The position numbers and the translations under genes are program-made. Of a DNA stretch of 64,000 bases, positions 1,459-53,420 are shown in pieces. The stretch comes from Loxodes magnus. Its lineage: Eukaryota; Ciliophora; Karyorelictea; Loxodida; Loxodidae. The stretch is from assembly GCA_946699065.1 (NCBI GenBank), contig CAMPDV010000006.1, positions 372,001-436,000 of the forward strand, read 5' to 3'. The first letter of the stretch is position 1; the number at the start of each line of letters is the position of its first letter. The notes under the pieces were generated by a model. That model saw only the letters and a program-made list of their open reading frames with translations. It had not been told where the DNA came from and ran no database searches.

Positions 1459-1955
1459 TCGCCGTAATTGTTCGAAGGTGAACAACAAGGGACGGCTTCA
1501 TCAGAGGTTGGGGAAGCTAAGTACCCATAATCGACTTTATGTCTTCCTCTACTTCGGCTTGACCTCTAGACATCTGCTAGTTTGACCTTTGGCACTGGCT
1601 TATTTTAGTTTTTAATTCTGGAAATAAAAGGAAATTATTTTTGCGAGCTTCATCAGAGGTGGGGAATTTAAATACCCATAATTGATACATGTCATCTGCT
1701 TTGGTGATACAGTGAGACGCAACCCGCCATGTCCTTGAACCTCCAACAAGTATTAAATATTACGAGTATTCTAAAATTATATCAGTATTGAACATTTTTA
1801 TCAGTACTGAATAATTATACCAGTATTGAACAAGGTTTATCAGTATCTGATAATTTTATTAGTAGCAAACATTCTTGTCAGTATGAAACAATTTTTAAAG
1901 AGCTGCGCACCAATGAGAGTACTTCGCGCTCTATAATCAAATTTATTTATTTATT
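1459..1955 (+). mobile_element. SINE-like element, family B, copy 1
   Basis: A dispersed element of about 500 bp, also present in reverse orientation at about 51411-51890. It is more GC-rich than its surroundings. It contains an imperfect internal duplication: a motif beginning GCTTCATCAGAGGT and running through TACCCATAAT occurs at about 1496 and again at about 1646. A run of degenerate TATCAGTACTGA-like units follows at about 1775-1890. The 3' end is a GC-rich hairpin (AGAGC paired with GCTCT) followed by an ATTT-repeat tail. This last module is shared with family A, which suggests mobilisation by the same LINE-type machinery (inference). No protein is encoded. Confidence 0.7.
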
Positions 1956-1964
1956 ATGTATAAA

Positions 1965-2180
1965 AAATAAGGATGATGATCAATGCTAATAGCACTTTCT
2001 AACTGGATGCCACCATGGAAAAGGAGAAGAGGTATAAAGGAAGATACCTAATTTATTCGAGGGTTTTCAATAGAGTGAATGTTCTACTGAAAGCAACTCT
2101 TAACCAAGGTTTCTGAAACCAGTTCATATATCTACCTTTTCATGTCAATTGCGATTCGCCAAATTCAAGATGAAGAAAAA
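1965..2180 (+). repeat. Degenerate SINE family A-like fragment
   Basis: This GC-richer island has an order of short motifs like the 5' half of family A (CTGGATGCCACCATGG against CTAGATGCCATCACGG, then a CCTAA...GAGG...TTCTC-type stretch). It has no recognisable tail and lies just after the tail of the family B element. I read it as an old, truncated family A copy. The similarity is by eye and weak. Confidence 0.35.
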
Positions 2181-3431
2181 TGGTTTGAAGAACTCCCTTT
2201 ATTATTTTTTATTATGTTATCTAATTTTAGAGATTGCTGATATTAGATCAAGATTCAAGAATTTAGGATATACTAGAAATAAACATTTGGTAATTATTTT
2301 ATCTCAAGAATAGCTAAAAAATAATTATCAATAGACACTTTTTAGATATTTTAAACTTATTTCGTGACAAAACTATTAACTGTGAAATCAAATAAATATA
2401 TTATGTAATGCTATCAGATCTTTTTCATTGGTCTGGCAAATTTATTACTTTATATACCTATATATCATATCATTATATTCTAATTATAATTGAATGGTTC
2501 CTTTTTATTAATAAATAACCTACTAAATTATTGAAATTATATATACTCTTATTGGTGTATCGAGAAATATCTCTACAATATTCACAAATTGCGCATTCAA
2601 ACTGCTAGGTAGCGTACTGGTTCTGTCAAGCAAACTTTTACGGCTCTCTGTATATTTATAAAACCCTTCTAAGATAAGTAAATATTCTGAGGAATATTAG
2701 GCGCCAATGGAGGGTGAGAGTTGCTCTGACTAAGAATAACCTATTTAGGATTAGATGAGCTTGAAAATTGAAATCAAAATATCTTAGCATGAAGTAATCA
2801 TAAACCAAAAATAAGTTGTGCTGGAAGGTAATTGAAGAAAAAATTCTGCTGATAGGCGATTAGTCACTAAATATTTCGCAAGCAAACTGATTAATCTTTA
2901 ATTTCATACTTTAATTAAATTTAATTGACATTCATATCCAATATACTCAGATAACCTTATAAAAGGAATGAGCAAATTTAGCACATACTCTATAATACTC
3001 GGCTATTTGTTATAGAATTAATTATGTATAAAAATATTTAATTACGATACAATTTATATCAGTTTTCATTTCTTGTTACATTTTTATATAAAATTTAAAA
3101 AAAGTGATTCTAAGAAGGAATAAGATTGTCCTGTTTTATCTTATTAAAAGATAACTTAGAAGCAACTTTAAGCAAATAATTTAAAAATATATACTAAAGC
3201 AAAATAATTTTGATTTTTAAAACAGAAAGATATTTCCAAAGAAATTATAGATTGTAATAAATTATCATGATTCTCCTTACTAAAATAAATTAAATTTTAA
3301 TCAGTTAGATTACTGTCAATAAAATTCTGTATTTGATTCCAAATTTACAGTTTCATATTACATTTCGTGTACTTCTTTTAAGTCTTATTCCATAAGATCT
3401 AATATTTATTAACTTAAAAATATAAAATGTA
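2181..3431. other. AT-rich region, no supported gene
   Basis: AT-rich with one GC-richer patch at about 2580-2740 that I could not match to another repeat or to a protein. Nothing else is supported. Confidence 0.3.
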
Positions 3432-3859
3432 TATAGGCCGCGTCAGAAAAACTAGTAGGTAATCTGGTGCAGTGTACTGCATTTCAAGTAACCTCGCACT
3501 AGATGCCAGCTCGAGAAAGGTGGATAAGCTCCGTTGAAACATGCCTAACTTGCCCCGAGGATTCTCTCTAGCAGTATGAAAATTTGACTGAAGAGCCTTC
3601 TAATTAATGACTTAATAACTAATTCTTATTTGGACCTTATTCAAGAATACTGAAGCATTTGACTCAAGATTTAAGAATAATTTTTAATAAGAAGATTCCA
3701 CATTTAGAGAAGCTGAAATGATTCAATGGACTTCTAGAATTTTAACGAGAAACATGAGAACACTTTTTTTAATATTAAATATTAATATTAATATTGAAAG
3801 AGCTGTGCGCCAATGAGGTGCTACGCGCTCTATAATAATTTTTATTTATTTATTTATTC
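3432..3859 (+). mobile_element. SINE-like element, family A, copy 1
   Basis: One of three clear copies in the window (the others at about 12716 and 48541, all on this strand). Shared blocks include GTAGGTAATCTGGTGC, the CTAGATGCCA block, GAGGATTCTCTCTAGCAGTA and a long stretch around TTGGACCTTATTCAAGA. The 3' end has the hairpin module AGAGCTG...GCGCTCT followed by (ATTT)n, the same tail seen in family B. At about 420 bp, with no coding capacity and an A/T-repeat tail, it fits a SINE. I did not find convincing RNA polymerase III A and B boxes. Confidence 0.75.
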
Positions 3860-5486
3860 AACTTGGCAAATTTATGTCTATTTATCTAAAAATAGTAGTT
3901 TGATTAGAAAAGTATTTCGTTATAAAAGTTAATTAAAATTAAATTATTCAAGCAACCTCTAATTCTTTAATAATGTTTTAAGGTTGACATTCTATCGTTT
4001 ATATTTTTTCTAATTCATCAATAAAAATTTTTACAATATTATACAAAATTGCAGATCTTATATATTCTATTAAGAATTCCTTAGCTATGCTTATTTTTTC
4101 TATAACTAAAAATTATATGAACCTCCATTGATAAAATGATAATATATCATTCAACTTTAAAAATGAATTTTTAAGCTAATATTAGCTATTAAAAAGATCA
4201 CTTTAACAATCCAACAATTCAATTATCTAATTACTGAAGAGATTTTATAAATGTTTTTATTTTTTTGTAGTTAAAAAGCTTCAAATATGCATTTTCTTAT
4301 TACAGTTAATCTTTTTTTTTCTTTTTTTTCTATAAATTTAACTTTTTTGAAATATTCAAAAGTAAACTATTAATGAATATTTTGACTATATGAAGAAAAA
4401 TTAATTGCCTTTTTACTTTTTATTTTAAAGTTATTTGAAAAGTAGATATAAATCTTAGCCTGCATATTACAGTATTTAACCATATGGCTCTTATAATGCT
4501 GTTTTAATACTTTCCTTTACAAAAAAACAACTATATAGATTATAAAGCGCTCAAAAGCACTCTCCTTCAATTTTTCTTTTACTAGGAAATTAAAATTTTA
4601 TAATCATTTTGCTGACTTTTATATAATTTAACTTTTTCACTTAGAAACTAAATATAATCCATACTTTAGAATCATAGAGATTAGTATTAAAACAGCTGCT
4701 TTTTAAAATAGAATGTGAGAGATTATAGAATCTATCTAGAGTGCTCTAAAAGCACTAGCTTATAATAGCTATATGTTAAATAAACTTAATTGCATGATAA
4801 TTTGGTACTATATTTGAAAGTTGAAAAAGATATACTCATCAATTTGAAAAAACATTGAACTTTTAAAAAATTAAGTTTTTACTACAAAATAGATGATCCT
4901 AGTGTAATATGTTTGTAGTAGAAAATTAGAAAATAGATTATATTTTACTTCAAGTAATTGGGAAAATATTTTAAACGAAGAATCTTTTGTTTAGTAAAGA
5001 TCAAAACATAATGATATAATTTTAACTAAAAAAGGCGAATTTAACTATTTTATTACTCAAAATCCTTCCTCAATTGGATAGATAATAAAAAACTTTCATC
5101 TCATAATTATAATTAGTACATTAGAAAGCCTTTATTAGGTTAAGTTTCCGCAGAAAAAATGTAAAGCAAGAATTATAAGAATGTAGCGATAGAGAAGTTG
5201 ATAGAGAGTTAAATATCATCTAAATACAATTTTTATTTAATATGATAATCAAAACAAACCTTCACTAGCTATACTTCATTATTTCTAAATATAAAAATTT
5301 ATATTAAATTAATCACTAAATTTTATGTTCTTTGGTGAGAATAAATTTCTCTAAATCAACATTTACCAGTTTGAAAACGCATAATATTACTAAGAATATA
5401 CTATTTATTATAACTTTGAGATTAAAGTTTTATAATTGATTGCTAGTTTTTTATTTTATTTTTTATTCTTAAAAATAAACTAAAAA
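3860..5486. other. AT-rich region, no supported gene
   Basis: About 1.6 kb of very AT-rich DNA between a SINE and tRNA-Ala, including a T-rich patch near 4310-4330. I see no recognisable gene or repeat. Confidence 0.3.
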
Positions 5487-5559
5487 TGGAGAACACGGAT
5501 ATCGATCCCGTTGCCTCTCGCATGCAAAGCGAGTGCTCTACCATTTGAGCTAGTTCCCC
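5487..5559 (-). tRNA. tRNA-Ala (anticodon UGC)
   Basis: On the minus strand the sequence folds as a cloverleaf: acceptor stem GGGGAAC paired with GTTCTCC and discriminator A; anticodon stem CTCGC/GCGAG with loop TTTGCAT, giving anticodon TGC; T stem ACGGG/TCCGT closed by one G-U pair. There is no intron and no encoded CCA. Two further copies lie at 33216 and 54914; both have a perfect T stem (ACGGG/CCCGT), so this is the slightly diverged copy. The T-loop starts with A instead of the usual T in all copies. Confidence 0.93.
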
Positions 5560-6095
5560 TTATATATATCTTTATTGTATTTCCTAAATATAATTTTTCT
5601 TATGAAATTAAGAGTTTTTTTAATTAATATCTTACTCTAATAAAAAGCTATTTATATATTAAATTGAATAAATTTTTAGGTAGATTCAATTAATTAAATG
5701 AAATGAATAAAGTTAATAAGTGAAAAAACGAAAATATCCTTTTAAACTACTTTGGTGCACTAAAATGAGCTTTACCTATTATCCACTTTCCAGATATATT
5801 TTTAAAGCAGAAAATTATCCTTAGTTAATTATTTATTAATCATAAAATTATTAAATTAGTTGATTTTAATTCTTTTACCCTAAGTTAAAGATGAATCATA
5901 AACAGAATTCTAGTTTATTTTCCTTGTAATTTAAGTATGCTTATCTACTAAAAATTCAATATTTTTGCTTATATTTAATGGATTTAGTTTTATTATTTGG
6001 CGAAGTTCCATTTTTGTTCTAATTTATTGAGATCCTGACTTTAAATAATTCGATCATTTTTAAAGTACTAAAATATTTTAAATCCTATATATAAA
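5560..6095. other. Intergenic region upstream of methyltransferase
   Basis: AT-rich spacer between two divergent genes. The last 120 bases before the methyltransferase ATG, including a GGCGAAGTTCCATTTTTGTT block, are conserved in the inverted copy at about 31910-32030, so they may hold the promoter and 5' leader. No canonical promoter motif can be assigned. Confidence 0.4.
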
Positions 6096-7115
6096 ATGCT
6101 TTCACCTGTTGAGTAACTTCAAAGGATGATAATAGGAAACTGAAATACACAAATAGTAGGCACCTTTGCTTCCTTAAAACTAGCTGATTTCATTGATAAT
6201 GATGATCTTACCGTTGAGGAAATCAATAGCAGGTTGACTCCTCCTTGTAACTAGGAATTTTTAGAAAGATACCTAAGATCTGCTGAAATACTAAATCTAG
6301 TTAAATCTAATGAAGAAGCGCCTATCAAGTATTAAGTTACTGACTTAGGAAAGCTATTGAAGTCTAACGGGCCGTTTTGGCATCGAGCAGTGTATTTTTC
6401 CAGTGAATTTCCTTAAAAAAGTTGGTAAAATCTAACTCTCTCACTATAAAAGGGACAATCAGGAGCCTCGTTAGCATTTGGATAAAACTGGGTTTCATAC
6501 TGGAATGAGACATAAGAAAAAGCAGAGTTTTTCTCTGGTTTTATGTCTAATTTCACTAAAAGCATTGCTTAAGAATAGAATTGGGAACCAAATAAAGATT
6601 TGTTTTCTAATATTAATACTCTCGTAGATGTTGGAGGATCAGAAGGGATCCTTTTATGCTCGATTTTGAAGTAAAATCCTCATTTAAAAGGAGTAGTTTT
6701 TGAACTTGAGAAGCTAGAACCAATTGCAACTAAATACATATAAGATTAAAACTTAGCTGATAGAGCTAGGTTCTAGTCAGGAGATTTCTTCAAACCTGAA
6801 ACGATAGTAAGTGCAGATTGCTATATGATGAAGTCAGTACTTCATGATTGGAATGATGAAGAATGCATCTAAATATTAGGAAATATTGCAAAAGCAGCTC
6901 CTTAAGGAAGCAAGTTTTACAATGTTGACGCGATAATTGACATTAATAATTAGTCTAGTGTTTTAGCAGATATTCATATGATGATGGTAACAGGAGGAAG
7001 AGAAAGAACCTTAGAATCATTTATCAGCATTTTCGAAAAGTCAGGGTGGAAATTCACTGAAGCAAGAAAAGTAGGAAAAACTCCTCTTAGTCTTATTTGT
7101 GCAGCAAGAGTTTGA
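6096..7115 (+). CDS. O-methyltransferase (COMT/HIOMT-like), copy A
   Basis: Encodes 339 residues with TAA/TAG read as Gln and one in-frame TGA as Trp near the start (MIIGNW). It ends at TGA followed at once by TAA. The fold matches the SAM-dependent O-methyltransferase family 2 (caffeate/acetylserotonin type). A helical N-terminal dimerisation region comes first; the SAM-binding glycine loop DVGGSEG lies at about residues 178-184; LHDWNDEE at about 249-256 carries the family's catalytic His (His250); the TGGRERT motif lies near residue 299. Length is normal for the family. It should transfer a methyl group to a hydroxyl of a small molecule; the substrate cannot be inferred. A second intact copy of identical length lies inverted at 30887-31906, and the LRR gene follows 450 bases downstream. 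Confidence 0.93.
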
Positions 7116-7563
7116 TAACAGATTGATTATCCTTAAAATCTTAACTTATATCAATATTATCCATCAATCAAAGGAAAATAAATCTACTCTATAAAATAAA
7201 TTTCATTTGCTTTCAAAAGAAAACATCTTAGTCATTTAATAAGCATTCACAGTTATTTCAAATAGAATAAGTAAAAGTTATTAAACTATCTGACCTGAAA
7301 TCAGGATTTGATTATGAGTATTATTTTTATAAAAATATCATAATTAAAATTATGAAAATAAAAGTTAGATATGAATAGAGGGATTTAAAAGCTTTATCAT
7401 ACTCTTTAATTTAAATAAATAAACCTAATTTTAACTTTATGAATATAAACTGATAAAGTAACTAGTCATGTCAATAATCACTAAATAGTAATTAAGAGAT
7501 GAAGCTAGTTAAATCAAATTATACTTATTTTATTAAATTATTTTATATTTAGCTATTAAATAA
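7116..7563. other. Conserved intergenic spacer and LRR gene leader
   Basis: Spacer between the methyltransferase and the LRR gene. Its last 230 bases recur inverted at about 28333-28560 before the second LRR copy, and again as an orphan at about 54080-54320 with no LRR gene beside it. Conservation in three places fits a promoter/leader, but duplication of the whole block explains it equally well. Confidence 0.5.
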
Positions 7564-10092: not shown

Positions 10093-10368
10093 TAAGTTAA
10101 AAGTTAAAAGGTTAAATCTTGATAATTTTAAAAGCTTTCAAAAAATATTACATAAAGATTTCCTATTTTTAAGTTTATACCTAAAGTCTATCTATCGATA
10201 ATTATTTATATTATTATTTACATCTTAACTTCTACTTTCACTTTCTTTTTCTTAATTATATAGTAGTAGTAGATGTGTTTTTAAATGGAGTAAGTGTAAG
10301 TAATTAAGATTACTCTTAGTATTAAGTTTAAAATACTAAATTTAAACTAAAATATTTATCTTCAAAAG

Positions 10369-12418: not shown

Positions 12419-12715
12419 GATAACTCAATTCAAATTAAAAATTACAATAAACTCAATATATCTGCTGAAGGTATAATCATACTTAAGCAAAGGACAAGTT
12501 ATTTTTGCTAATTTAAATAGTTCTGAAGGAGAGTTAAAGGTTTTGGTATTATTAATATGTAATCAAATATAATTATAAGGGATAATAATAAAGAAGGAAA
12601 GCGAGAAATTTATAATTCATTTAGAAGAAAGTTTATCTTTATAGGATTTCTGGCTTTATATATATCCTATAATACTCATATAATTCTATCGTTAATATAT
12701 TAAAAAATATATAAA
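12419..12715. other. AT-rich spacer before SINE
   Basis: Possible extension of the preceding reading frame or its 3' region. Nothing distinct is visible. Confidence 0.3.
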
Positions 12716-13134
12716 ATGGATATCGACTGCGTCAGGAGAACAAGTAGGTAATCTGGTGCCGTGTATAATGCATTACGAGTAATCTCGCACTAGATGCCAT
12801 CACGGGGAAGGGTGGACAAACTCCGTTGAGACATGCCTAACTTACCCTGAGGATTCTCTCTAGCAGTATGAAAGTTTGACTGAGGAGCCTTCTAATTAAT
12901 GACTTAATAGCTAATTCTTATTTGGACCTTATTCAAGAAGATTGAAGTATTTGACTCAAGATTAAAGAATAATTTTTAATAAGAAGATTCCCCATTTGGA
13001 GAAGCTGACATGACTCTATGGACGAAAAGAACGAAATCAAGCTTTTGAGAACACTTTTTTAATATTAAATTTTAATCTGAAAGAGCTGCGCGCCAACGAG
13101 GTGCTATACGCTCCGTAATTATTTTTATTTATTA
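12716..13134 (+). mobile_element. SINE-like element, family A, copy 2
   Basis: The best preserved family A copy. It begins near ATGGATATCGACTGCGTC and shares GTAGGTAATCTGGTGC, GCCTAACTTACCCTGAGG and the TTGGACCTTATTCAAGA block with the copies at 3432 and 48541. It ends with the GC-rich hairpin (AGAGCTGCGCGCCAACGAGG...ACGCTC) and an ATTT tail. It lies in the spacer of the large inverted repeat, which has no counterpart in the arms. Confidence 0.78.
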
Positions 13135-13991: not shown

Positions 13992-16900
13992 TCAAAATAA
14001 TTAAAAAAATACGATTTTTTTCCTTTCAGTTAGAGATTAAAAATAATTTGTTTTAGAGCTATAAATAAAGATGGTACTAATTAGAGAGAGATTAAGTTAA
14101 CTATATTAGAATTTGATAAGTATAGAACCAAAAAAAAGGCTTTGCAATTTTTATAAAAAAGAGAACTTATGGGTAGATAAAAGTAGCTAAGCGTTATTAA
14201 TATCGTTAGGTAAGCTCCAAAATTATGAAGATAAAGACACAAAAATAAATTTAAAATTGAATTAACAATTGAAATTTTAAGTGTTGCTGAGCTCCTAGCA
14301 TATTGTCCTAAAATTCACTAGAGATAGTGGTTTTACAAAGTACTCATCAGCTCCTTAATTTATAATTTCTTGCTCTATTTCTCCTGAATTTCCTGATAAC
14401 ATTATTATCTTTAACTTTCGATCGTTCTAAAATTACTTTTCGAACTCTCTTATTTGTAAGATGCATTCTAGTCCATTCATTTCTGGCATTTCGTTATCAA
14501 TTATTATTGCATCTATTTTATCATAACTGTCTTTTAAAATTTCTAAGGCTTTGATTCCAGAGTCAGCTGTAAAGCAATTCACATCAACCTCTTCAGCGTA
14601 CAAAGACAAAATTTTCAAGTTCTGTTAGTTGTCATCTACGAATAAAAATGTCTTCTACTCTTTTAATTTCTGTTTATTACTTAGATTATTAAGAAATTTC
14701 ATAAGCTACTCCTAACTTATATTTGAGGATATTGCTCCATTTATATTTTAATGAGTTTGCAGGATCCTTTCAGTCTCAGTTCTGTTTCTAGAGATAATAT
14801 ATATCGGAATAGATTTCATTTCTTAAACTACTTCTATTTCTTTTATTCTATTAATAATCACTAGAATAGTTCTATGATCAATATTATTGTTTATCATAAT
14901 CATATCGATTGGATTGCTTTCGCTTATTTGAAGGAAGTTAGCTGTATTTTTTTTTTCAAATTGGATTATTTAAACATCTATTTCCATTATTTTGAGTAAG
15001 TTTATTATTTTATTTTTTTCTGCCTACTCACTGATATACACAACTCTCATTTTCTTTAACAAATTGTATTTTTTATCCTTTTTAAGTGGTCTTGAAACGT
15101 CTAGAGGCAAACTTACTTTAAATACTGTTCCTAATCCAAGCTGGCTTTCTACTTTAATTTAGCCTTTCATTTCTTTAAGTATCGTTTAAGAAATTCATAA
15201 TCCTAACCCAGTTCCTCCGTATTTTTTGCTGACGCTTTTATCAGCTTGCTAAAAAGGCTAGAACAATTTTTTGATATTTTCCTCAGAGATTCCACATCCA
15301 GTGTCCTTAATGATAATATCAAGTATACCCTATTTTTCATAGCCTTTTTCATAAATAATTATATTTTAGTTACTTTACGCTGAACTCTCGTAAAAGTTTA
15401 ATTAGCTAGCTATCTATTACTTTACTTAATCTTCTACTTAGAAATTTTCATTTGTAAAGAACTTAAAAGGTATCTACATCCCTGCATAAGGTGGAGAGGA
15501 AGTGATTTCAGAAATTACTCCAAATTCTTCATTAAAGGACTAAATATTTTCAGTTAGCTATTGAGGATTTGCTTGTTAGTCACTTTATATTTCTGTTTTC
15601 TATTTAGGTTGATATATAAGAGGCTTTCTTTAGAACCACTTCCTTTATAATTAAGTCTATGATTAGCTTAATTGATTTCCTTCATCTTAAGATAGCTATT
15701 ATTATCTTAGATCTACATATGATTTCTATTTTTACTTTTTCTGAGGCTTTTCTGACTAAGTTAATAAAGAACACTCTATCTAACTGGATATTCTAAGACC
15801 CTAGGATAAAGATTGAGTTCTAGATTGATTTTTTGTCTTTATTAATTTTTGTTGAAGGCCAGAGTTTATTAAAGAGCTTTATTCGCTGGTACTAAACTCA
15901 TTACTTTATAAAAGTTAGAGTAGAGTCGATTATCCTTAAGCTTACTTGTCAATACTGGAAGGAAGTTAATAAATTCCGTCTTTTTCAATTAGGTCAAAAG
16001 ATGTGATAGGCCTTATTAGATTTTGCACTTCCATCTAAGATACTGACTAGTTAACAGATTAGCTTTATGTAGTCCTTCTAGACTTCTACTAGCAGATTAT
16101 TTGATATTTCAGTAAATGTTCCTAGTGTTATTTTATATTCTTCACAATTGGCTATTTATTCCTATCTTCCTTATCAATTGAATCCAAGTTAGGTGTTCAT
16201 TTAGTTTTAATGCTCACTTTTCCTTTCTCAGTGAATTTAATTGCATTTCCAATCAAATTCATCAGAACTTGCATTGTTCTTTGCTAATCAATGTTGAGAT
16301 ACTTAGGAACATGTGGATCATTTTTCATTGAGAAGTTAAGTTTTTTCCTTATTGGGTTTGATTTATTAATCTGGAATATCTTAAAAATGAACTTCCTTAT
16401 TTCAGTCGACTCTACTCATAAGTCAAATTTCCCTGACTCTATTTTTGAAGCATCAAGTATATTATTAATCATTCCCTATAAAGCTTCTCCTGAATCCTGC
16501 GCGTTTTTAACAAGCGCAATTTAATCTAAAGATAAATCCTCAAGTTGACATGAAATAATATCCAAATTGCCAAGTACAGAGTTAAGCGGATTTCTTAGCT
16601 CATGAATCATCGCAGCAATGAACTGGTTTTTATTTTTCTTTTCAATCTCATAATTCACTATCCTATTTTTTAGCTTATGAACTAGCATCCTCTTTTGTTT
16701 AATTTTAAGCTTATAGGAGGTATAAGCAGTTTTTGATCCAACTAAAATCCTTTTAAACTTCTTAACCTAAAGTTTAAATTTGCTATACTCTTGCTATTTT
16801 TAGTTAAGAAAGGTGTTTAGTTTAGCGAAGTAATTAATAGTCAGAGCGAAAATTATATTGCAAATGATGTTTATAATTTGTATACTGTTTACCAAGTCCT

Positions 16901-17426
16901 GATATAGCATATCTGAGATTAAACTGCTTCTCTAATCAGATTATCACTTTTGGTATTAAATTCTGGGTTAATTGGCTTCTAAAACAATATGAACCAACAG
17001 TAGCATCAGAAAGAAAACTTTTCTATTCTTTGTCAGCAAAAACGAAATAGCAGGGATGAAAAAAGTCTCTATGTTTATAAAGCTAAAATTCCACTATTTA
17101 AAAATCCAATAGTTGCCTACCATCAAAATTAAAAGAGAAACAAAACTTAGCATTTTTGAGTTACTAGCCAGCTTTATCTGAAGAAAAGGAATTGAAACAA
17201 AATAACTGCTCCAAAGTACTAGTGCAAGCTTATGAACCCCCAAGACCTCTTTCATCTCAAACAGTAAAGCAAGGTTAATGAAATTGAAGATACCGAGCAA
17301 CATAAAAGTAATTCTTATTAAGCGAATATTAGTCTGAGCCATCATAATACCAAATATTTTGCTACCTATATTATTAATCTAGCTTCTAATAGCATCTCTT
17401 ATACTTCTAAATGTACTTGTTTCCAT
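13992..17426 (-). CDS. Hybrid sensor histidine kinase with receiver domain
   Basis: Continuous in one frame from the ATG at 17426 with TAA/TAG as Gln. Order: N-terminal membrane region of several hydrophobic helices (residues about 30-215); HisKA H-box MIHELRNPLN with phospho-acceptor His275; N-box VLMNLIGNAIKFTEKG near residue 395; a Gln/Ser-rich low-complexity insert of about 300 residues; G-boxes DTGCGISEENIKKLF near 710 and YGGTGLGLW near 744; receiver domain FLFVDDNQQNLKIL with phospho-acceptor Asp977 in IIIDNEMPEMNG and the conserved Lys in VKPL. The Trp of GLGLW is encoded by TGA at a position where Trp or Ala is usual, good evidence for the code. The receiver ends near residue 1045; the next in-frame TGA is at 13992-13994, about 95 codons later, so true termination may be at TAA near 14277. 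It acts in membrane-bound two-component phosphorelay signalling. Confidence 0.92.
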
Positions 17427-20339
17427 TTTATTTTCTTCAAAATTAATTTAAATTCTTAATTAATCAAAATAATGCTAAGCATTATACCTTTGATTCTCAA
17501 TAGTTTCAAATACCATAAATGTTAAGGATGCTAATGCAGTTGAATTTTAAGTATATATCCTTTACTTTTTTTTGTTTTCTTTGTATGCAAGAGTTGCTTA
17601 TTTGCATTAGCTTTACCTTTTTAAAAAATGTAGGATAGATAACTACTTTGGAATTTGCTAAATCGGTTTGCTTTGGAAGACTGGTTAAAAGGTTTTATGA
17701 AATGACTAATAAAAACGAGAATGACTGTCAAAAGGAGTGTGGATAGAAGTAGAGATAAATAGTAATTTAAAAGAAAGAAAAGAGACTAAGTATAGAAACC
17801 ATAATAGCTTGGTAGATATATCAATATAAATAAAATTATTAATATCATATATAATATCTCTTTCATACCATCCATCTAACTATTATTTTAACTGATCTGT
17901 TAAACTTAGTTTAATGATATAGATAAAAGGAACAAATAGAAAGGAAAATGACACTTCAGTTTTTTTATAGTGAAAAGAGGAAATTTTAAGTAATTTTTTC
18001 GTTTAGTTATGCTGAGTATATCAAGGATTTGATATAAAAAGAAGCTTTATATTGGTTAAGTAGGAAACATAAAAGTAAATACATGACTGTATATTGTTAT
18101 AAGGTAATAAGATCATATATATTGCTTTTATTTTTAATTAATGATTAAATGATTGAAAAAATACCTGAAAATTGATGTAGCTTAAATATATTCCAATTAT
18201 TAATTCCTCTCTAGTATCTTTTAGCAACGTTTCAAGCCAGGAATATTAGCACTGTCATAGATTATTTTTTCCTTTTGCTATCTAATTATATACTATCTGT
18301 CTGCGTTTAGTAATAGCTATTCATAAGATTAAAAAAATCTGCTCCATAAAGAATTTTATTATAAAATCCTAAATTAATCATATATTTTATAAGCTTATTG
18401 AGTTATATTATCTAATTGATAATTTGATTTTCCCTCTAGTTAGATTATTTATTTCTCCTTGATTATTAATTTTAAAGTCTCCAATCCTCCAATTTATTTT
18501 CAATTAGTTCTGAATCTCAATTAGCTCTTAAGTTATTCATACAATAATAATTTTATTATATCACTGATTTCTGACTTTATTCTCATATTTTTATTAAGAG
18601 AAAGCATTTCTAATCCTTTTTATCCAGTTCCTTTATTTAATTCTTATGAATATGGGGTTATTTGTATCTATATATTTATCATTTTATTCCTTAATTTTCC
18701 TTTACTATAGTTAGAGAATTCTATTCAGTTCAAGAAATCATAAACTTTGTCTGAATTACTAATTTTAATTACCAAGTATAATAGCTTAGACTACCACCCT
18801 TCCACTGTGGATAATTATTTGCTTTTTAAGTCTTTTTGTTCTTTTAGTTTCAGCACTATGATTGATTAATGTCATTTGTTCTTTAGTCATATCTATAATC
18901 CTGGTGTTATTGATATCCTTAATGGAAAAAGTTAGCTTATAAGAGACTCAAAATATAGAAGGATGATGAGTAAGCTAATTTTTAGATTTAGAAAAGGGTA
19001 AAATTTTAATTTAAAGACACAAGCATCTAGGTATCTTTTAGTGCTAATTTGAGTCTAAATTTGAATAACGCATTTTAATACCTAAAGCAAAATCTTAATC
19101 TTAGGACTTGCTAGCATTATCAACTTTAATAATAAACCCAAAATTTATATTTCAGGTATGGATTTAATTATAAGGTGAAAGTGATCACTATCAAAGTTTA
19201 AAATATGGAAGCTTATTATTGATATAATAAGCATATAATAAAATCCTTTTGACTATCTTAGAGTTTTAATATCCTTATTCTTGATTTACCCTTTAATTTA
19301 ATAAGAATGTAGCTCCAAAATTTTCTAGTCTCACTCTTTAATAATTTAGGAATTTAATATTCTAAGTTTCTTTGTATAGACTTAGACTTAAGGAGTTAAT
19401 AGTAATACCAAATTGATTTATATTTAGTTTATAATTTAAAGCTGTTATTTATATACCTTCCTGTTACTTATTATTCACCTTTATTAAATATAGACAGGTT
19501 ATAACTTCAGTACTCATTTCTTACTAAAGACCAAATATCCTGTTTAAATAAATAGAATGGAAATAATCTGCTAGTATTTAAATATAGCAGCTTAGATTCT
19601 TATCCTGTTTTCTCTGGTTAGTTTTCCTTCCTTCTATTTACCATTAGTTAGATGTTTTATTAAAGGTAATCATCTTAATATACTGAGAAGGTATTTAAAT
19701 AAATCTACACCTTTAAAACAAATTAGGCTTTTCATCAACTGCATTCATATTTTTATTATTATGTTATATGTCTAATACCTGTAAATTAAAAGTTGCATAA
19801 CTCTTGAAAAGGCTACCATTAGCTTAAAATAAAAATTTTCAGATAGATCTAAGTAAATTAATAAATATCAATCACTTAGAGAAAAAGAAGCTTAAGGTAT
19901 AAGAAATTTAATACTTGTATCTTCAGATTAATCTCCTATTGCTTAGCACTATCAGATATATCTTTCATTAAGATTCTTAAATTTGCTTTAGATCAATTAA
20001 ATCTATTTTACATTCTTATAGTATATGTATTATATACCATGCTAATTATTTTACCTACATATAGTAGAATTATCTTTTGATATATCCCAATTTATTCCTT
20101 TTTATATACTTATTTAGTTAGTATTTAGTCCTTTTGCTATCTAGAGTAGATAAGTTTAGTGAAGTGTGAAATCTAATTCCACTTTATGCTTTTATATTAT
20201 ATTAAAGAAACCACTATATTGATATATACTTTATAGACAGAAAGCTTTATATCTTTAATATTACTATCCAAATTTTTACCTTATCTTGAAACAAAAGCGT
20301 AGTATACTTATTTTCACTTTGAGCTTCTAGAAAATTAGA
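17427..20339. other. Probable coding region of unresolved strand and structure
   Basis: Lies between the histidine kinase start and a better supported coding region. On the plus strand a frame opening at an ATG at 17628 is coherent for about 150 codons and basic (ending in a Lys/Arg-rich stretch). On the minus strand a frame over about 18200-19140 also shows raised G at codon position 1. The two cannot both be right over their whole length. I cannot decide between a plus-strand gene with short introns, a minus-strand gene, or a decayed gene. Confidence 0.3.
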
Positions 20340-28332: not shown

Positions 28333-28828
28333 TTATTTAATAGCTAAATATAAAATAATTTTATTGATAAGTATAATTTGATCTAACTGGCTTTATCTCT
28401 TAATTACTATTTAGTGGTTATAAACAAAACTAGTTACTTAGTCAGTTTGAATATCATAAAGATAGAATTAAGTTTATTTATTTAAATAATGAGTATGATA
28501 AAGCTTTTAAATCCCTCTATTCATATCTTTGTTTATTTTCATCATTTTACTTAAGATATTTATAAGCACTAAGAAATATTATCAAATCCTAATACTAGGA
28601 TTAGATGAGATGGAACTAAATAACTAGTGCTTATTCTAATTGAAGCAACTGTGATGCTTATTTATTTTATTTAATAGTCAAATTTTTCTTTTTTTATGAG
28701 AGTTGAAATTCATTTTAAGGAGTTAATTTCATTCCCCCAGATGTATGGATTATATAGATCTAAGCTAAACTTGTAAATTATGATTTCATAAGCAAAGAAA
28801 AATCGCTAATCCAAGAATTAGAAACTAA

Positions 28829-29014
28829 ATGAATTTTAGTGCAGAATTAAGATCTAATAAATATAAAAGCCCATTTAATAAATTCCTAATGGAGAATTAC
28901 CTAATCCAGAAGAATAAAGGTAGAATAACTGAAATATGGAAGAAGTTATCTAATTTAATTCTTCCTTCTTTTCTAAGCACTATTTTAAGGTTTGGTAGAT
29001 ACCTCAAGAACTGA
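28829..29014 (+). other. Short open frame upstream of right-arm gene
   Basis: A 61-codon frame free of TAA/TAG (starting MNFSAELRSNKYKSP) ending at TGA. It is in the same frame as the gene at 29405, but the 390 bases between them look poor in coding signal. It could be a first exon or chance. No family recognised. Confidence 0.25.
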
Positions 29015-29404
29015 ATATATTATTATTCCTGCTTTAAAAGTATAAAAGATTGTATGAAAAACTAACATTCCATTTCCTTAATAATACCCTTTTTAAAATA
29101 TATGATAAAGCTCTAATATAAAAACTATATATATTGGTATACGAAATTGTATAAATAGAGCTATAGTATTAATCATAAATATACAATCATTGCATATATG
29201 AGCTATATAGTAAATACTAGATATATTGTATAAATAATTAATAGGAAATACCATATTACTAGATACACTAGTAGATGAGGAAGAATATTAGATTATAATG
29301 AAAAAGTTACTTTTTTAATTATCGCACAAGAATAAAATTACCATTGAGTCTAAGTAAATGCATCTAAATCATTTTTATTAAAAATATCTCTTCTTTTCTT
29401 CTAG

Positions 29405-48156: not shown

Positions 48157-48429
48157 CAAAAACATTTAGAAATTTATTCTTTATGCTTCCAATTTTATTT
48201 AAAAAAGACAATAAATAAGAATTTATCAACTACATAACTTATTATCTATTTCTGCTTAGTAGCATCTACTGTTTAAAGTTCACTTAAACTATATATGAAG
48301 CTTAATTCTTTTACATTCTTGTGATTTTAATGTTCCTGATTTTTTATAAATAGAGTAAGTGTAAATAGTTAAGATTATTCTTAGTATTAGGCTTTTAGGG
48401 TTAATTCTAATACTAATTATGAATTCAAA
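48157..48429. other. Spacer with tRNA-Gly-type flank
   Basis: No gene seen. The last 90 bases (ATAGAGTAAGTGTAAA...CTTAGTATTA...) match the flank of tRNA-Gly at 10270-10368, showing that the pseudogene arose by duplication of the block. Confidence 0.5.
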
Positions 48430-48500
48430 AGCGCCATCCGGGACATGAACCCGGGTAACTGCTTGGAAGACAGTTATCCTAACCACTAGACTAATGGTGC
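48430..48500 (-). pseudogene. tRNA-Gly pseudogene
   Basis: Recognisable copy of tRNA-Gly(UCC) with damage: the T-loop reads TTCATGT instead of TTCGAGT, one base is lost between anticodon and T arms, the acceptor stem has C to T (GCACCAT opposite ATGGCGC) and the anticodon stem has one changed base. The anticodon TCC is still present. Loss of the TTCGA core of the T-loop, part of the internal B-box promoter, should prevent normal transcription and folding. Confidence 0.85.
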
Positions 48501-48540
48501 CTATAATTATATTAGAAAGATGCTTATTAAATAACAAAAA

Positions 48541-48956
48541 AATTGATGTCGACTGCGGTCAGAAGAACTTGCAGTAAAATCTGCTGCAGTGTATACTGAA
48601 TTGCAAGTAATCTCGCCCTAGATGCCATCAATGGGGAAGAGTGAACAAACTCGGAAGAAACAAGCCTAACTTGCCCGAGGGTTCTTGCTATCAGTACAAA
48701 AGTATGAATGAAGGCCTTCTAATGACTTAATTACTTCTTATAAGGATCTTATTCAAGAGGACTGAAGCAATTTGTTCAAGATCCGAGAATAATCTTTAAT
48801 AAGTAGATTCCCCATTTGGAGAAGCTGACTTGACTCATTGGATAACTAGAATGACAACATGAAGTATGAGAATACTTTTCTAATATTAAATATTAATATT
48901 GAAAGAGCTACTCCCCAACGAGGTGCAACACGCTATATAATAATATTTATTTATTT
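48541..48956 (+). mobile_element. SINE-like element, family A, copy 3
   Basis: The most diverged clear copy. Shared blocks with 3432 and 12716: GTCGACTGCGG, CTAGATGCCATCA, TCTAATGACTTAAT and CCCCATTTGGAGAAGCTGAC, with the tail hairpin altered (AGAGCTACTCCCCAACGAGG) and an ATTT tail. It sits about 40 bases from the tRNA-Gly pseudogene, inside DNA that is continuous in the left arm, so it inserted after this copy of the block formed. Confidence 0.75.
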
Positions 48957-49401
48957 GATGCCTTTTTTAACATAGCAAGGATCATTTATATACAAACTTC
49001 AGTTTACAAATCTTATTCTATCTTTATATTATCAATTATCAGATTATAGGTTATATTGCTTAAATTTAATAGCCAAAACTACTTTCAAAAACTAGGGATT
49101 ATAAAAGTCTAAATTTTCTTACAAGAATAGTTGAATCAAGAAGATAAATGGTATAAATCGAACTTTCTATAAAATTGATGATTTTGGGATATTTAAAGGA
49201 AATAAAAATTTGATAGAAGAACAATAAAAAAGAGAAATGTGGAAATACATAAGAATAATATAAATTATATCTCAGATAAGAGTAATAGATAGAATTTAAT
49301 AGTAATTAATAAGCTAATTTATTTATTATAGCTAAAGACGTTTAGATAAGAGAGATTAAAGGAAAATTAAAGTTATGAAGCATGACATCAAGTTAAAAAG
49401 A
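48957..49401. other. Diverged duplicate of tRNA-Gly upstream spacer
   Basis: Matches about 10540-10960 of the left arm and spacer in diverged form (shared TATCAATTATCAGATTA, then ATAATAGATA and AGATAAGA motifs). No gene seen. Confidence 0.5.
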
Positions 49402-50904
49402 TCAGATTTGTTATAACTTTAAAAAGTTTACTTTATATAAATTTCTATTTTAAACTTTGATTAGTTGCTTTGACTAAGACAGATAGCCTTTCTAAATCTA
49501 GTCTAAATTAGGAAATATGAACAATTTTAGAAATATATCCTAAAATGCTGATAAAATTTATAAAGTATCAACTTTAATTTGCTCTTTAACTGGCTCCATT
49601 AAATGATTTTTTGACTTAGCATTATAAGATAACTTTTCATATGAATAATTCCATACTTAAATTATGCTTTCTTTTTGGTACAAAACAAATAAAAATTAAA
49701 AAAATTTGCTAGAAAATGAAATGCTAATTTCTGCATTTTTTGATTAAGTTTCATAAATTAATTTAAAATCCTTTATTTATTTATTAATCTTAATTACTTT
49801 AACTTTTAAATAAAAACTTAGTTTGCTGCAGATGCTTACTCCATTTTGCCCTTTCCAAATATATTTTTTAATATTTCTAATTGGATAATTTTTAACTGCT
49901 TCGTTCTTAGATAAACTCTCTTATAGATCTTTTAGAAAAACAATATTTGAAAGTTTAAAATTTTACTTTTATAATTCATTGGTGGAAAGTTAGTTTCCAT
50001 TCAAAATTTTTGTGATTCTCATCGTGTTAACAAAAATTATTGAAAAGTGTATATTAGTTTATAGTATATGAACCTATTGTTTGAGATAAATAATTTGCTA
50101 ATCTTTATTCTAATGGTATCAATCAACTTATTTTATAAAAAAGAAATCTAAGTTATAACAGATCTTTACAATTAAATCCAATCATTAATCAGATTTTCTA
50201 ACAATTTCTATTTACTACGATTGGATAAATAGAGCTAGCAAATAAAGTTTAAGGCCTTAAATAGATAACTTAATCTCTTATTTCATATTACTGTTTTATA
50301 AAATAACTGCCTTAGCCTTTTTACGAATTAATTTTAGACTAAAAGAGTTTTTTGTAATCTATAACTGCAAGAATTGCTTCCTTCAATTATAGACATTAGT
50401 AAATGTTTTTAATTCTTTTTAATTATAATCTTGATCTCATTAATTTTTGATTACTCTTGCTATAGTCTCATCTTTTAGCTCTTCCTTTTTGCTTTTTCCA
50501 TTTCTAATAATTCTAGTCTTCTTACATAAGTTTCTTGTGAAATATTTTTATTTATAAATCTAAATATATCAAATAAGACTTCGGAAACGATAGTCAATCT
50601 CTTATATTAGAATAGTATGTAAATTTAAAAATTTTCTCGAATGTTATTATACTCTCCATACATACAGTAGGGATTATCAATAGGATAATGATGATCTTAG
50701 ATATCTTTTAGAAATTATAGGATTGAGTTCTAAGTTTATATATACTGATAATTTATTGTCTAAATTCTTTGTTCAACTTAGTGTAAGTAATTACTGGGAA
50801 ATTGTTTAAGATTACTAAACTGCTCAGTATATATTTTAGCTGCTTTCCTTCTCTTAAACTTTTGAGTAGCTTTATTATATAAATAAAGTAAAAATTATTA
50901 ACAT
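49402..50904 (-). CDS. Unrecognised 500-residue protein
   Basis: Coherent single frame from ATG 50904 to TGA 49402-49404 with a quarter of codons starting with G in the best part (50340-50520). The N-terminus is hydrophobic and may be a signal sequence (MLIIFTLFIQQSYSKVQ). The middle is basic and charged (NGKSKKEELKDETIARVI; KLIRKKAKAVILQNSNMK). Eight Trp are encoded by TGA and three by TGG. It diverges from the next gene with only 87 bases between the two ATGs, suggesting a shared promoter. Its last ~50 codons overlap the diverged duplicate of the left-arm spacer, so that end may be recent. No known domain recognised. Confidence 0.55.
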
Positions 50905-50991
50905 AAAATGGCTTCTAAGAAATAATAGAACTTTGAACAAAATATTTAAACAGGAAAATTATCTAAAAAATAAAAAAGCAAAATAATTACA

Positions 50992-52182
50992 ATGAGTGAA
51001 AGTGAGAAATATGATTGATATGACGAACATTAACCACTTGGAAATCCAGAATTAAAAAAACTTCCTTCACAAACTCAAATAGAAATATTAACTAAGTCAT
51101 TAAAAGAGTTTATGTTCAAAAATAGATACCTCACTGATAAAGTAGAAAAATTAATAATGTCTTTACTTGAGAAAAAATATTAATCATCATAAGAAATAGA
51201 AAACAAACTGGAGCAAAGAATTTTTTAAATTTAATAATAAATTCAGGTAACTCCATTTTCGTTTTAATAGAATTAATCAGATCTTATGGAAATAGAAAAT
51301 GAAGCCTCAAATTAAAATAAATAGTAAACGTTTATTTAAAATAACTAGTAAATTTAAATTAAGTAAGTGATACAGGAATAAAAGTTTAAAAGAAGAATAA
51401 AATGCTACGTGTATAAATAAATAAATTTGATTATAGAGCGCGTAGCACTCTCGTTGGTGCGCAGCTCTTTAAAAAAAAATGTTTCATACTGACAAGAATG
51501 TTTGTTACTGATAAAATTATCAGATACTGATAAACCTTGTCCAATACTGGTATAATTTTATAATACTCGTAATCTTTAATACTTGCTGGAGGTCCAAGGA
51601 TATGGCAGGATTGTGTCTCATTGCATCACCAAAGCAGAGGACGACATGTGTCAATTATGGGTACTTAAATTCCTCACCTCTGATGAAGCTCACAATATTA
51701 TTTCTTTTTCGTTCCAGTATTAAAAATAAACGAAACCAAGTCAAGCCAACGTCGAAGGCCTAAGAATCTTATGTCTCGAGGTCAAACCAAAGCAGAGGAA
51801 GACATAAAGTCGATTATGGGTACTTAACTTCCCCAACCTCTGATGAAGATGACCTTGTTGTTCACCTTCGAACAACTATGGCGGTTTTAAAAATTATATA
51901 ATAAATAACATCAATGAAAATACTGCTAAAAACTAAGCGAAATTTAAAGAAAGAATAAATAAGATATTTTTAGAAAACTATTTAGGATATATCCAACATA
52001 AAGCGGAAAAATTTATAGAAAAAATTCTTTAATTCAAATCTTAATCCTTGGATAAATAATTAGGAACGCTACGTGCAAAATCAAAACTATTAAGAATATT
52101 AAAGGATGGTACACTAATGAAGTGCTATATCGCCTAACTAAGCCTAGTAGAAATTCATGACAAACTAATAGAGACAAGCTGA
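50992..52182 (+). CDS. Unrecognised coiled-coil-like protein interrupted in frame by a SINE
   Basis: Begins MSESEKYDWYDEHQPLGN and reads as an acidic, Gln/Glu/Lys-rich, probably coiled-coil protein for 139 codons. The frame then enters the reverse-oriented family B SINE (about 51411-51890). After it the same frame again looks coding, Lys/Glu-rich (KFKERINKIFLENYLGY, KAEKFIEKIL), to TGA at 52180-52182. The insertion preserves the frame. Either the SINE is translated, removed from RNA, or the gene is broken. An alternative end exists if everything between two GCTACGTG repeats (51402 and 52068) is an insertion. Function unknown. Confidence 0.5.
51411..51890 (-). mobile_element. SINE-like element, family B, copy 2
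   Basis: Reverse-oriented copy of the element at 1459-1955 with all its parts: ATTT tail, hairpin AGAGC...GCTCT, the TATCAGTAC-type tandem units, and the duplicated ...CATCAGAGGT...TACCCATAAT... modules. It lies inside the reading frame of the gene that starts at 50992. Confidence 0.78.
52090..52140 (+). repeat. Degenerate SINE tail fragment
   Basis: ACACTAATGAAGTGCTATAT resembles the hairpin module of the SINE tails (GCGCCAATGAGGTGCTACGC). No body is recognisable. Weak, by-eye match. Confidence 0.3.
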
Positions 52183-52249
52183 TAGAATAGATCAGATGGC
52201 TGACTACTAAGGCTTTAACAAAGCTTTTTAACTTGAACTTTAATTTTTT

Positions 52250-53110
52250 TTTAATTTAGATTAATTAAACTTTGCCCATATTATAAATGGGAATTATTAT
52301 AGATTTATAAGTTATTAAGTATAATCTAAAGCAGTGTCCATTCTGTTGATTCTTTCAATTGCATTCTTATAATACTTATGCTATATTCTTTATTTGATGT
52401 GTTTATTAAATCATTAAAGCAGCTGTTATTTTCTTTGCTTCTTGTCAATATTATAAGTTCCTATTTTACTAAAGTTAAAGTAGCATTTATATGTTTTCTT
52501 CTGTTATTTACGAAAAGATTTCCTATTAACAAATTGACTTAATATACATTTTCTTTCCTGATCTTATTAAAGAATTTAAAGAACATATGGACATAATATA
52601 TTTAAAAAGAAGTTAATTAAAGTCTATTTAATTTGGCTTATTAAATGATATTTCCTTTGTTTAAAAGATCCTTAGCACAATAAGACATTTGTAAGCCAAG
52701 AATTAGATGCTTCAATATAGAAATTGTTAAGTTCTTTTATTAAATTCTACATATATTTTTCAGATTTGGATATGAGAATTAAATAATTTGCTCTTCTTCT
52801 GCAAGTAATGCTGCTATTAAATTTATTACACTCTAATTATTTAATTTTAATTTTGCTTTCTTAGTAACGAATTATTATATCATAATATAGCAAGGCTAAG
52901 GTTCATTTGAGCTTCCTTTAATTACTCAGTTTTTAAATTAGATAGTCTTGATTATTTTAATCTAGAAGAAATGATGAGATATTTTTAATAAAAGATCCAT
53001 GCATTTATTATACTCAATGGTAATTTTATTCTTGTGTACTTATTAAGAAGTAACTTTTTCATTATAATCTATTATTTTTCCTCATCTAATAATGTATCTA
53101 GTAATTTGGT
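52250..53110 (-). pseudogene. Truncated relative of the right-arm gene at 29405
   Basis: Inverted relative of about 29280-30420. The frame of that gene is conserved over one segment (INLIAALLAEEEQIIQFSY), but about 290 bases are missing from the middle and other indels follow. It is best read as a decayed partial copy, though the conserved segment shows that it was once coding. Confidence 0.6.
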
Positions 53111-53139
53111 TTTTCCTACTAATTATCTACATTAAAATT

Positions 53140-53420
53140 TTTTTTATTAAAGTGCGTGTAGCACCTCAATGGTGTGCAGCACTATAAGAAGTCAATTTTA
53201 AAGTTTTTAAATTCCCAATATTCCCTTTGTATCTTCTCTTCTAATTATAGGCAAGGTTGCGTTCCAGATCTCCAAAGTACAGGACACCAACAGGCGATTA
53301 AGGTAAATTTCCAACTCATGATGAAGAGATTAGGCTGGTCCAAAATTTAGAGGGTTTTCTGAGCCATTTCATCCTTGGGTAATTCTTCTCGTAACCTTTA
53401 GAGGCAAGGTCCATCCTATT
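53140..53420 (-). mobile_element. Possible SINE-like element, family C
   Basis: On the minus strand the tail hairpin is recognisable (GTGCTGCACACCATTGAGG...CACGCAC). About 100 bases upstream of it on that strand is a CATCATGAGTTGGAAATTTACC stretch like the CATCAGAGGT...TACCC module of family B. It overlaps the 3' end of the minus-strand gene at 53192-54058. Moderate evidence only. Confidence 0.4.

Follow-up and report, generated by a model that had tools for sequence, protein, structure and literature searches.

Stringent-type LINE/SINE pairs have been described from eumetazoans to green plants, and in the L1-clade pairs of plants the hairpin carries compensatory changes (passages of PMC3747384). 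In ciliates, putative SINEs and solo-ORF1 elements are described from Paramecium, the solo-ORF1s being thought to be mobilised in trans (passages of PMC5405496). SINE-classed short elements have been reported in Paramecium tetraurelia, and SINE-classed elements account for 0.10% of the genome of Cryptocaryon irritans. The parts of the paper on the 706 Mbp MAC assembly of Loxodes that treat retroelements describe abundant elements of 5-6 kbp with RVT_1 and Exo_endo_phos_2 domains; the word 'SINE' is absent from its main text and those passages contain no 3' tail structure. No description of LINE-tail parasitism in a ciliate was found in the literature searched, including passages of PMC11441545, PMC9942856, PMC5182062, PMC8790277, PMC13059789 and PMC5405496. 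As other ciliates already have SINE-classed elements, the novelty of the elements reported here lies in the shared tail and its LINE, and not in the presence of SINEs.

Results

Unrelated bodies with a common 3' module

The window (the whole stretch of 64,000 nucleotides of Loxodes magnus DNA that was analysed) contains two copies of family A, three copies of family B and the family C element C1, with lengths of about 290-510 bp (Table 1). The element coordinates of the initial annotation were correct to within a few tens of bases. Its solo tail fragment could not be identified, as a blastn search of the window with the six elements as queries (E 1e-3) placed tails in A1, A2, B1-B3 and C1 only. 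The three B copies are mutually 77-84% identical (blastn). The ORF1-like repeat lies outside the tail module and yet supplies the empty site for A2.

Table 1. Positions of the short elements, their tails and the neighbouring repeat in the window
Feature	Position	Strand	Remarks
A1, family A	1444..1955	+	79% identity to A2; AT-rich leader, body with partly duplicated unit, 19-bp tandem units (1765-1887), LINE-type tail
A1 tail, hairpin + (ATTT)n	1897..1955	+	55-59 bp, 88-95% to 29/30 LINE loci
B1, family B	3425..3858	+	84% identity to B2
B1 tail	3797..3858	+	blastn against A tails, E 8e-15
B2, family B	12707..13134	+	blastn to B1
B2 tail	13080..13134	+	genome-search query; 40 candidates scored
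B3, family B	48530..48957	+	adjoins tRNA-Gly gene; two empty paralogous sites
B3 tail	48902..48957	+	hairpin degenerate
ORF1-like repeat hosting A2	50894..52247	+	coiled coil + zinc knuckle (by eye)
A2, family A	51413..51890	-	antisense within ORF1-like repeat; empty site in L049
A2 tail	51413..51477	-	55-58 bp, 93-98% to 29/30 LINE loci
C1, family C	53136..53430	-	second C copy in L090; 3' end = paralogy break at 53129
C1 tail	53136..53187	-	46 bp, 87-89% to LINE-II 3' ends L092, L093

Families A and B had been proposed to be unrelated bodies on one 3' end, and this was confirmed. The blastn similarity between them is confined to the tail region (A1 against B1, 66 bp at 85%; A2 against B1, 61 bp at 87%; E 9e-15 for both), where they have in common a module of about 60 bp consisting of a GC-rich hairpin followed by (ATTT)n. 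The body alignment of A2 and B2 is at chance level with a score of 22 (shuffled, 20.6 +/- 2.5), while the within-family scores are 447 for A1-A2 and 473 for B1-B2. The C1 tail is related to that of B1 (blastn; 40 bp, 80%, E 1.6e-4). A score of 29 between the A and C bodies (shuffled, 18.7 +/- 2.2) lies above all 200 shuffles, the best of which reached 27; this is suggestive of kinship between these bodies at the sequence level, of which we make no claim.

First-look searches of the L. magnus MAC assembly (705,730,643 bp) returned 2392 candidates for the A body and 632 for the B2 tail, neither of these being an exact copy number, and 39 other scored A copies are 95-98% identical to A2. Matches of the tail core in viral contigs (29; GC 0.48-0.71) were taken as chance; around the core, blastn aligned 18-23 bases.

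A LINE with the same 3' end

The tail was found downstream of a reverse transcriptase (RT), so that the search for a LINE with a matching 3' end, suggested by the initial annotation, was successful. In 29 of 30 RT loci the RVT_1 domain is followed, about 1.3 kb 3' of it, by the same hairpin and (ATTT)n, which have 90.7-98.3% identity (E 1e-16 to 3e-23) to the A2 tail or to a B tail consensus drawn up by eye. The separate set of 30 tail loci is skewed toward B because the genome query was B's own tail. Thirteen further RT loci from other subgroups comprise seven with an A/B-type tail, two with a C-type tail and four with neither within about 1.7 kb. One locus, C67 (L099), has a LINE I RT (92-98% identical) and no tail within 1.7 kb; L064 is also without the LINE I tail.

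LINE I contains RVT_1 (124 bits) and Exo_endo_phos_2 (43.6 bits) domains. A single frame in L060 has PF14529 at 105-223 and PF00078 at 501-762, which places an AP endonuclease and the RT in one ORF, and among solved proteins human L1 ORF2p is the nearest (E 4.5e-22). LINE I is a very common retrotransposon in the Loxodes genome, and is probably one of the elements published with the MAC assembly. Since the ends of A and B are identical in type to the LINE I end, both families probably borrow the LINE I copying machinery.

The reading frames follow the karyorelict code (table 27), in which UGA is read as tryptophan within genes and UAA and UAG as glutamine. Every RVT_1 match among those listed has TGA, TAG and TAA, and a HATPase_c match extends from profile position 77 to 110 once codon 942, a TGA, is translated and not taken as a stop.

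5' junction and SINE features

A leader motif, TTATTATATATA, is common to A, B and LINE I at the 5' junction. The set comprised eight A, 22 B and seven LINE I copies, the LINE start being matched in seven of the 11 fetched LINE I 5' regions and not in the other four. The motif was picked from A and B and holds in the seven from LINE I as well (p 1.3e-4 relative to shuffles); in A by itself the support is weak (eight copies, p 0.03).

SINEs were judged here by Pol III box motifs and the T-run rule. The best box A and box B matches in A2, B2 and C1 were no better than those in shuffles (129 to 498 of 500 as good). Ahead of the tail, the longest T run reaches 7 or more in each of the nine A copies scored and 5 or more in 27 of 29 B copies. 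Rfam searches for a small-RNA origin of the bodies (A1 and B2, E up to 10) gave nothing near the gathering score, and Rfam over the whole window (E up to 1) found tRNA genes only, all outside the elements. The label of SINE is therefore just partly right: the elements are short, dispersed and multicopy and carry a LINE tail, but no Pol III promoter was found in A2, B2 or C1. We classify A and B as a stringent-type LINE/SINE-like system, counted as a variant because the bodies have no Pol III-derived look.

Insertion sites and flanks

Neither of the two paralogous sites, 10459/10462 and 24349/24353, contains B3 (local matches), and A2 is absent from the second copy of the ORF1-like repeat in L049, which is 92-93% identical. 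These empty sites identify A2 and B3 as insertions. The empty site of A2 has GTTATTTATT alone without the hairpin, and no duplication is seen beyond TTATT plus a 2-base difference.

Similarity was observed to end at the tail, and the flanks beyond it are unrelated. In a window of 50 nt beginning 62 nt past the hairpin start, the median identity of the 3' flanks is 42% for LINE (28 of 30 loci), 45% for B (22 of the 30 tail loci) and 40% for A (eight of 12 loci), with pairs above 75% identical numbering 5/378, 0/231 and 0/28 respectively. Between families, the B-LINE I medians are 95% in the hairpin and 43% both upstream and downstream, and the A-LINE I medians are 90% in the hairpin, 47% upstream and 42% downstream.

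No consistent target-site duplication was found among 36 insertions, where the similarity of an element's own 5' and 3' flanks was 19.5 compared to 18.8 for mismatched flanks (p 0.098). Excluded from this set were, in family A, L106 and L110, whose ends were not located, and L107, L111 and L115; in family B, L058 and L059, where the pattern was not matched, and the array copies L043-L047, L050 and L051; and also L049 and the LINE copy L124 (duplicate of L125). At B3, an apparent 5-bp duplication, GATGC, was set aside, since by eye the alignment with the empty site reaches deeper into the left flank. Insertion sites are T/A-rich, with TTATT before many copies. Arrays account for some of the B copies (L042-L047, L050, L051), and two groups of A loci are duplicates of one another (L106/L111/L115 and L107/L110).

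Hairpin conservation and a second tail pair

The alignment of 41 distinct tails consisted of the 40 distinct tails minus one odd row (L035), plus L092 and L093. Paired cells make up 93.3% of the hairpin versus 91.4 +/- 0.4 when shuffled, and four of 12 pairs are changed on both sides versus 1.1 in the shuffles, which exceeds the slid controls too. RNAalifold recovered just four outer pairs from the same alignment. The tail is predicted to fold into a conserved stem-loop, and the double changes in its stem reflect few evolutionary events.

Family C, known from two copies, does carry a related tail as initially annotated, but its partner is a second LINE lineage and not that of A and B. This LINE II, known from two loci (L092 and L093, both with the C-type tail), has an RT that is 64-67% identical to that of LINE I, and a compensatory replacement of A-U by U-A distinguishes its hairpin from that of LINE I. 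The 3' ends of LINE II and C have no ATTT repeat and show A and T runs after TTTAAT. Mean local scores, taken on a subset of eight A, 12 B, two C, seven LINE I and two LINE II sequences, pair A with LINE I (115 versus 58 with LINE II), B with LINE I (95 versus 45) and C with LINE II (66 versus 44 with LINE I). A piece of zinc-knuckle ORF lies just upstream of C1, which would fit a truncated LINE with C1 at its 3' end; this was rejected as the second C element in L090 (69-71% identity over 156-163 bp of the C1 body) shares the body start, which also puts the start of C1 near 53430.

Discussion

Families A and B are very probably non-autonomous retroposons in which distinct bodies are fused to the last ~60-75 nt of LINE I, with C carrying the LINE II tail. 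The reverse transcriptase of each LINE would recognise its own hairpin on the RNA, and the terminal repeat would pair with the nicked target and start copying, so that any transcript gaining the hairpin could be copied in trans. The simplest account of the different bodies would be that a single tail was captured more than once, through template switching for instance.

A relaxed type of recognition, where the LINE reads the terminal (ATTT)n alone and the hairpin came along as a passenger with the captured LINE end, would fit the repeat that ends A, B and LINE I alike, the decayed hairpin of B3 and the weak consensus fold. We regard it as unlikely, since LINE II and C retain the hairpin, with a compensatory change, without having ATTT, and both A and B have kept it despite their different bodies. 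That A and B are instead rearranged or deleted LINE copies, with bodies of LINE sequence and no independent body captured, appears quite improbable: the bodies had no blastn match (E 1e-3) in 45 LINE-region loci (L060-L104) except that of C1 to the C element in L090. What speaks for such half-LINEs is that A, B and LINE I have the 5' motif in common as well as the tail, and that one 19-bp unit of A resembles the LINE I sequence immediately 5' of the hairpin (score 22, reached in 3/2000 shuffles); as L090 was the one locus with a fully read LINE I 5' half, unsampled LINE variants might still supply a source.

Spread of the tails by recombination or gene conversion, with copy number raised by segmental duplication and not by retroposition, would account for the B arrays, the duplicate A loci and the few LINE pairs with a common 3' flank. 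It is highly improbable, as unrelated flanks surround most of the A, B and LINE loci sampled and B3 and A2 have empty sites. The T/A-rich sites and the TTATT ahead of many copies could also suggest that the elements insert next to a host repeat or target motif that only looks like their tail, one of the two findings under which the initial annotation would have failed. We give this next to no credence, as the hairpin is missing from the empty site of A2, sits at the LINE's own 3' end and is followed by unrelated flanks.

Under the retroposon reading, LINE tail parasitism known elsewhere is extended to a ciliate, and several bodies per tail together with two lineages having their own hairpins offer a comparison for what a LINE RT reads on RNA. 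A broader and tentative view, which we rate below even, is that these are orthogonal RT-RNA keys: the LINE hairpins would have diverged compensatorily, each with its own short Pol II-type parasites that are LINE-like at both ends, in a ciliate keeping such DNA in its working nucleus.

The Paramecium elements resemble those of Loxodes in being ciliate non-autonomous elements alongside LINE 3' ends with short tandem repeats, and the zinc-finger solo-ORF1 elements resemble the repeat hosting A2, whereas no hairpin tail common to LINEs and SINEs is described in those passages (PMC5405496). The L1-clade pairs of plants and green algae are similar in that LINE and SINE have a common conserved 3' end (passages of PMC3747384); the likeness of the Loxodes LINE to L1 is one of similarity to ORF2p. 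A close likeness in layout, a body joined to the partner LINE's 3' end with a stem-loop in the tail, is to eel UnaL2 and its SINEs, which are of the stringent type; the terminal short repeat is TGTAA in UnaL2 and ATTT in Loxodes. As compared to the stringent-type pairs described in the same passages (PMC3747384), the Loxodes system comes from a ciliate, has yielded neither a Pol III box nor a small-RNA body, and combines two LINE lineages, each with SINE-like partners, in one genome.

Elements and their common tail

Six short, SINE-like elements were found in the window: two of family A, three of family B and one of family C. Copies are 79% identical within family A and 77-84% within family B (blastn), whereas the similarity between A and B is confined to a 3' tail of about 60 bp (blastn, E 9e-15), and their bodies align with a score at the level of shuffled sequences. 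The initial annotation's description of unrelated A and B bodies joined to one tail is thus borne out. The tail hairpin reads AGAGC-U-GCGC(A/G)CC-AACGA-GGUGCUACGC-GCUCU and is followed by AUAAUCAAAUUUAUUUAUUU or a near variant. One of the 19-bp tandem units of family A resembles the stretch directly 5' of the hairpin in LINE I, the LINE lineage with this tail (score 22; 3 of 2000 shuffles scored at least as high). Some B copies (L042-L047, L050, L051; contigs C871, C697 and C52) sit in highly similar repeated units, where AAGCTTAAATAACTAGTTATTTAAGCTT, a palindrome-like sequence, or a near variant of it comes directly 3' of the tail.

Features with coordinates in the window
Feature	Position	Strand	Remarks
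19-bp tandem units of family A	1765-1887		within A1
Large inverted and tandem duplications	4916-33811 and 32669-64000		repeated tRNA-Ala, tRNA-Gly and O-methyltransferase genes
Histidine kinase with response-regulator domain	13995-18020	-	in-frame TGA at codons 359, 535, 608 and 942
ORF1-like repeat hosting A2	50894-52247	+	MASKKQQNFE..., coiled coil, CYVCNKQHQWKYC knuckle; also in L049 and at the end of L060
Zinc-knuckle ORF fragment, C-X2-C-X4-H-X4-C	~53980-53480	-	directly upstream of C1; one position is TGA

In the proposed stem of 12 pairs, 93.3% of the pairs across 41 distinct tails are standard, against 91.4 +/- 0.4 after shuffling, and stem pairs changed on both sides number 4 against 1.1, a value of 4 being reached by 6 of 500 shuffles. 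The stem also scored above all slid controls, a comparison biased towards it because the structure was derived from single-sequence folds of the same tails. The clearest compensatory change, A-U to U-A, occurs in all four tails of family C and LINE II (the second LINE lineage) and may represent a single event because these tails are related; one C tail has a further G-C to A-U change. RNAalifold alone retains just four outer-stem pairs in the same tails.

The A body search gave 40 scored matches, one being the window's own copy and the other 39 being 95-98% identical to it; as the best of 2392 candidates they establish that close copies exist rather than a mean age. Over the 60 nt that precede the hairpin, the median identity among 22 B copies is 69%. 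Family B looks older than A within this sample, in which the B loci were chosen by tail similarity.

Probable LINE partners

The RVT_1 profile search of the genome (705,730,643 bases, 7843 contigs) yielded 3403 candidates at first look, and 150 matches were scored; the best-scoring 30 of these were examined. Of these 30 loci, 29 have the A/B tail, at a distance of about 1.33 kb on the 3' side of the RT domain, and L064 alone lacks it, so that the proposed LINE ending in the same hairpin and ATTT repeat does exist. Identity to the LINE tails is 93-98% over 55-58 bp for the A2 tail and 91-96% over 54 bp for the B tail consensus. The 5' half of LINE I was read at full length in one copy (locus L060 together with L090, which overlaps it on the upstream side). 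This copy measures about 5.5 kb from 5' start to tail and contains, in addition to the RT, an AP endonuclease domain and an ORF1 frame in which a zinc knuckle was recognised by eye. Of the solved proteins, human L1 ORF2p matches best, a similarity and not a clade assignment. RT domains were also observed in tandem with a 2532-bp period on contigs C5131 and C20 (also 2504 bp on C5131), representing either partial-LINE arrays or an assembly effect.

The LINE II RT domains (L132, L133) share 64-67% identity with LINE I, and the ends downstream of them (L092, L093) carry a hairpin related to, and distinct from, that of A and B. Their best match among four tails tested is C1, with 87-89% over 46 bp; the tail scores pair A and B with LINE I, and C with LINE II. 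For the probable family C, where the evidence consists of two copies, the claim of a related tail stood, but its probable partner is LINE II and not LINE I. No match to the ORF fragment upstream of C1 was found in the paralogous stretch 28563-29231.

A third lineage (L094, L095) has an RT 51-53% identical to LINE I and the hairpin CCGTGGTGATCC...GGTGGTACCACGA with ATTT-type repeats, and a fourth (L101), about 30% identical in its RT, has a different 3' end again. The LINE-like ends at L094, L095, L101 and L091 differ in hairpin and repeat (CCGTGGT...ACCACG with ATTT-type repeats; GTCTCAATATT...AATATTGAAAC with ATTA-type repeats; GCTGCGAGC...GTGCTAGGCGC), and each type could be paired with short elements of its own.

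Insertion sites and proposed mechanism

The large duplications supply paralogous empty sites, and B3 is absent at both paralogous tRNA-Gly regions (10459/10462 and 24349/24353). A2 lies antisense within the ORF1-like repeat, a second copy of which (in L049) is without it. Neither of the two copies of this repeat that were read is joined to an RT, and the 3' end of the repeat differs from the A/B tail. The A2 empty site reads GTTATTTATT-GC-ACACG; the filled site retains GTTATTTATT on the left and has ATTTATTTAT joined to ACACG on the right. Apart from TTATT, then, nothing is duplicated, and the target has two bases lost or changed. Comparing own with mismatched 5' and 3' flanks as a test for target-site duplications gave p 0.098 for 36 insertions, with no clear excess of similarity between the flanks of one insertion.

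In A, B and LINE I alike, the body is directly preceded by the motif TTATTATATATA. The 37 leaders differ from it by 1.6 mismatches on average; the mean is 4.4 for 66 control flanks and 3.1 for shuffled leaders. The result for LINE I leaders (7 copies, p 1.3e-4) is more independent because the motif was picked by inspecting A and B; within A alone the signal is weak (8 copies, p 0.03). At the A2 empty site the motif is split: TTATT is part of the target and ATATAA part of the insert. This suggests a target preference common to the elements.

Separate bodies have thus been inserted with a tail shared with matching LINEs, paired lineage by lineage. The LINE protein would recognise the hairpin, the terminal repeat would pair with the nicked target, and the element RNA would be copied in trans. 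The tail may have been captured through template switching; the LINE I-like 19-bp unit of family A would fit slippage during this capture.

Transcription and genetic code

Pol III usually relies on an internal box A/box B promoter and terminates at T runs. Matches to these boxes in the elements are at chance level, and T runs precede the tail: at least 7 T in 9 of 9 A copies scored and at least 5 T in 27 of 29 B copies. Boxes of ordinary appearance are present in the tRNA genes of the window, and a run of four to six T directly follows five of the six (the remaining one, in its ARAGORN bounds, ends in TT with another TT after it), so the usual rules seem to hold in this genome. The classification of the families as SINEs therefore seems to hold for their behaviour, through the shared LINE tail, but fails on a strict defining feature, and we call them SINE-like retroposons. 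We suspect putative Pol II transcription.

In the histidine kinase, reading through TGA codon 942 extends the HATPase_c match from profile position 77 to 110, and read-through raises the whole-protein kinase score, 35.6 bits without it, to 82.1 bits; a second stretch contributes some of the gain. These in-frame TGAs are sequence evidence for a fit with the karyorelict code, given as table 27 in PMC11441545.

Comparison with known systems

The main text on the 706-Mbp Loxodes magnus MAC assembly names LINE families and does not use the word 'SINE' (PMC11441545), which is also absent from the main texts on Blepharisma and Tetrahymena. The main text on Cryptocaryon gives SINEs as 0.10% of the genome and nothing further, and none were detected in the Paramecium calkinsi MAC. 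Paramecium tetraurelia is reported to have putative SINEs and also solo-ORF1 elements, which our ORF1-like repeat resembles; no shared tail is described in the parts of that paper covered (PMC5405496). A LINE-SINE shared tail was not found described in the main texts of these ciliate papers; the supplements may hold an earlier note. Elsewhere, a survey quoted in PMC3747384 counts 58 SINEs, in hosts ranging from eumetazoans to green plants, whose 3' end is common to them and a partner LINE, and stem-loops are common in the stringent type according to the same source. Judged by their sequences, families A, B and C look as if they act like SINEs of this stringent type.
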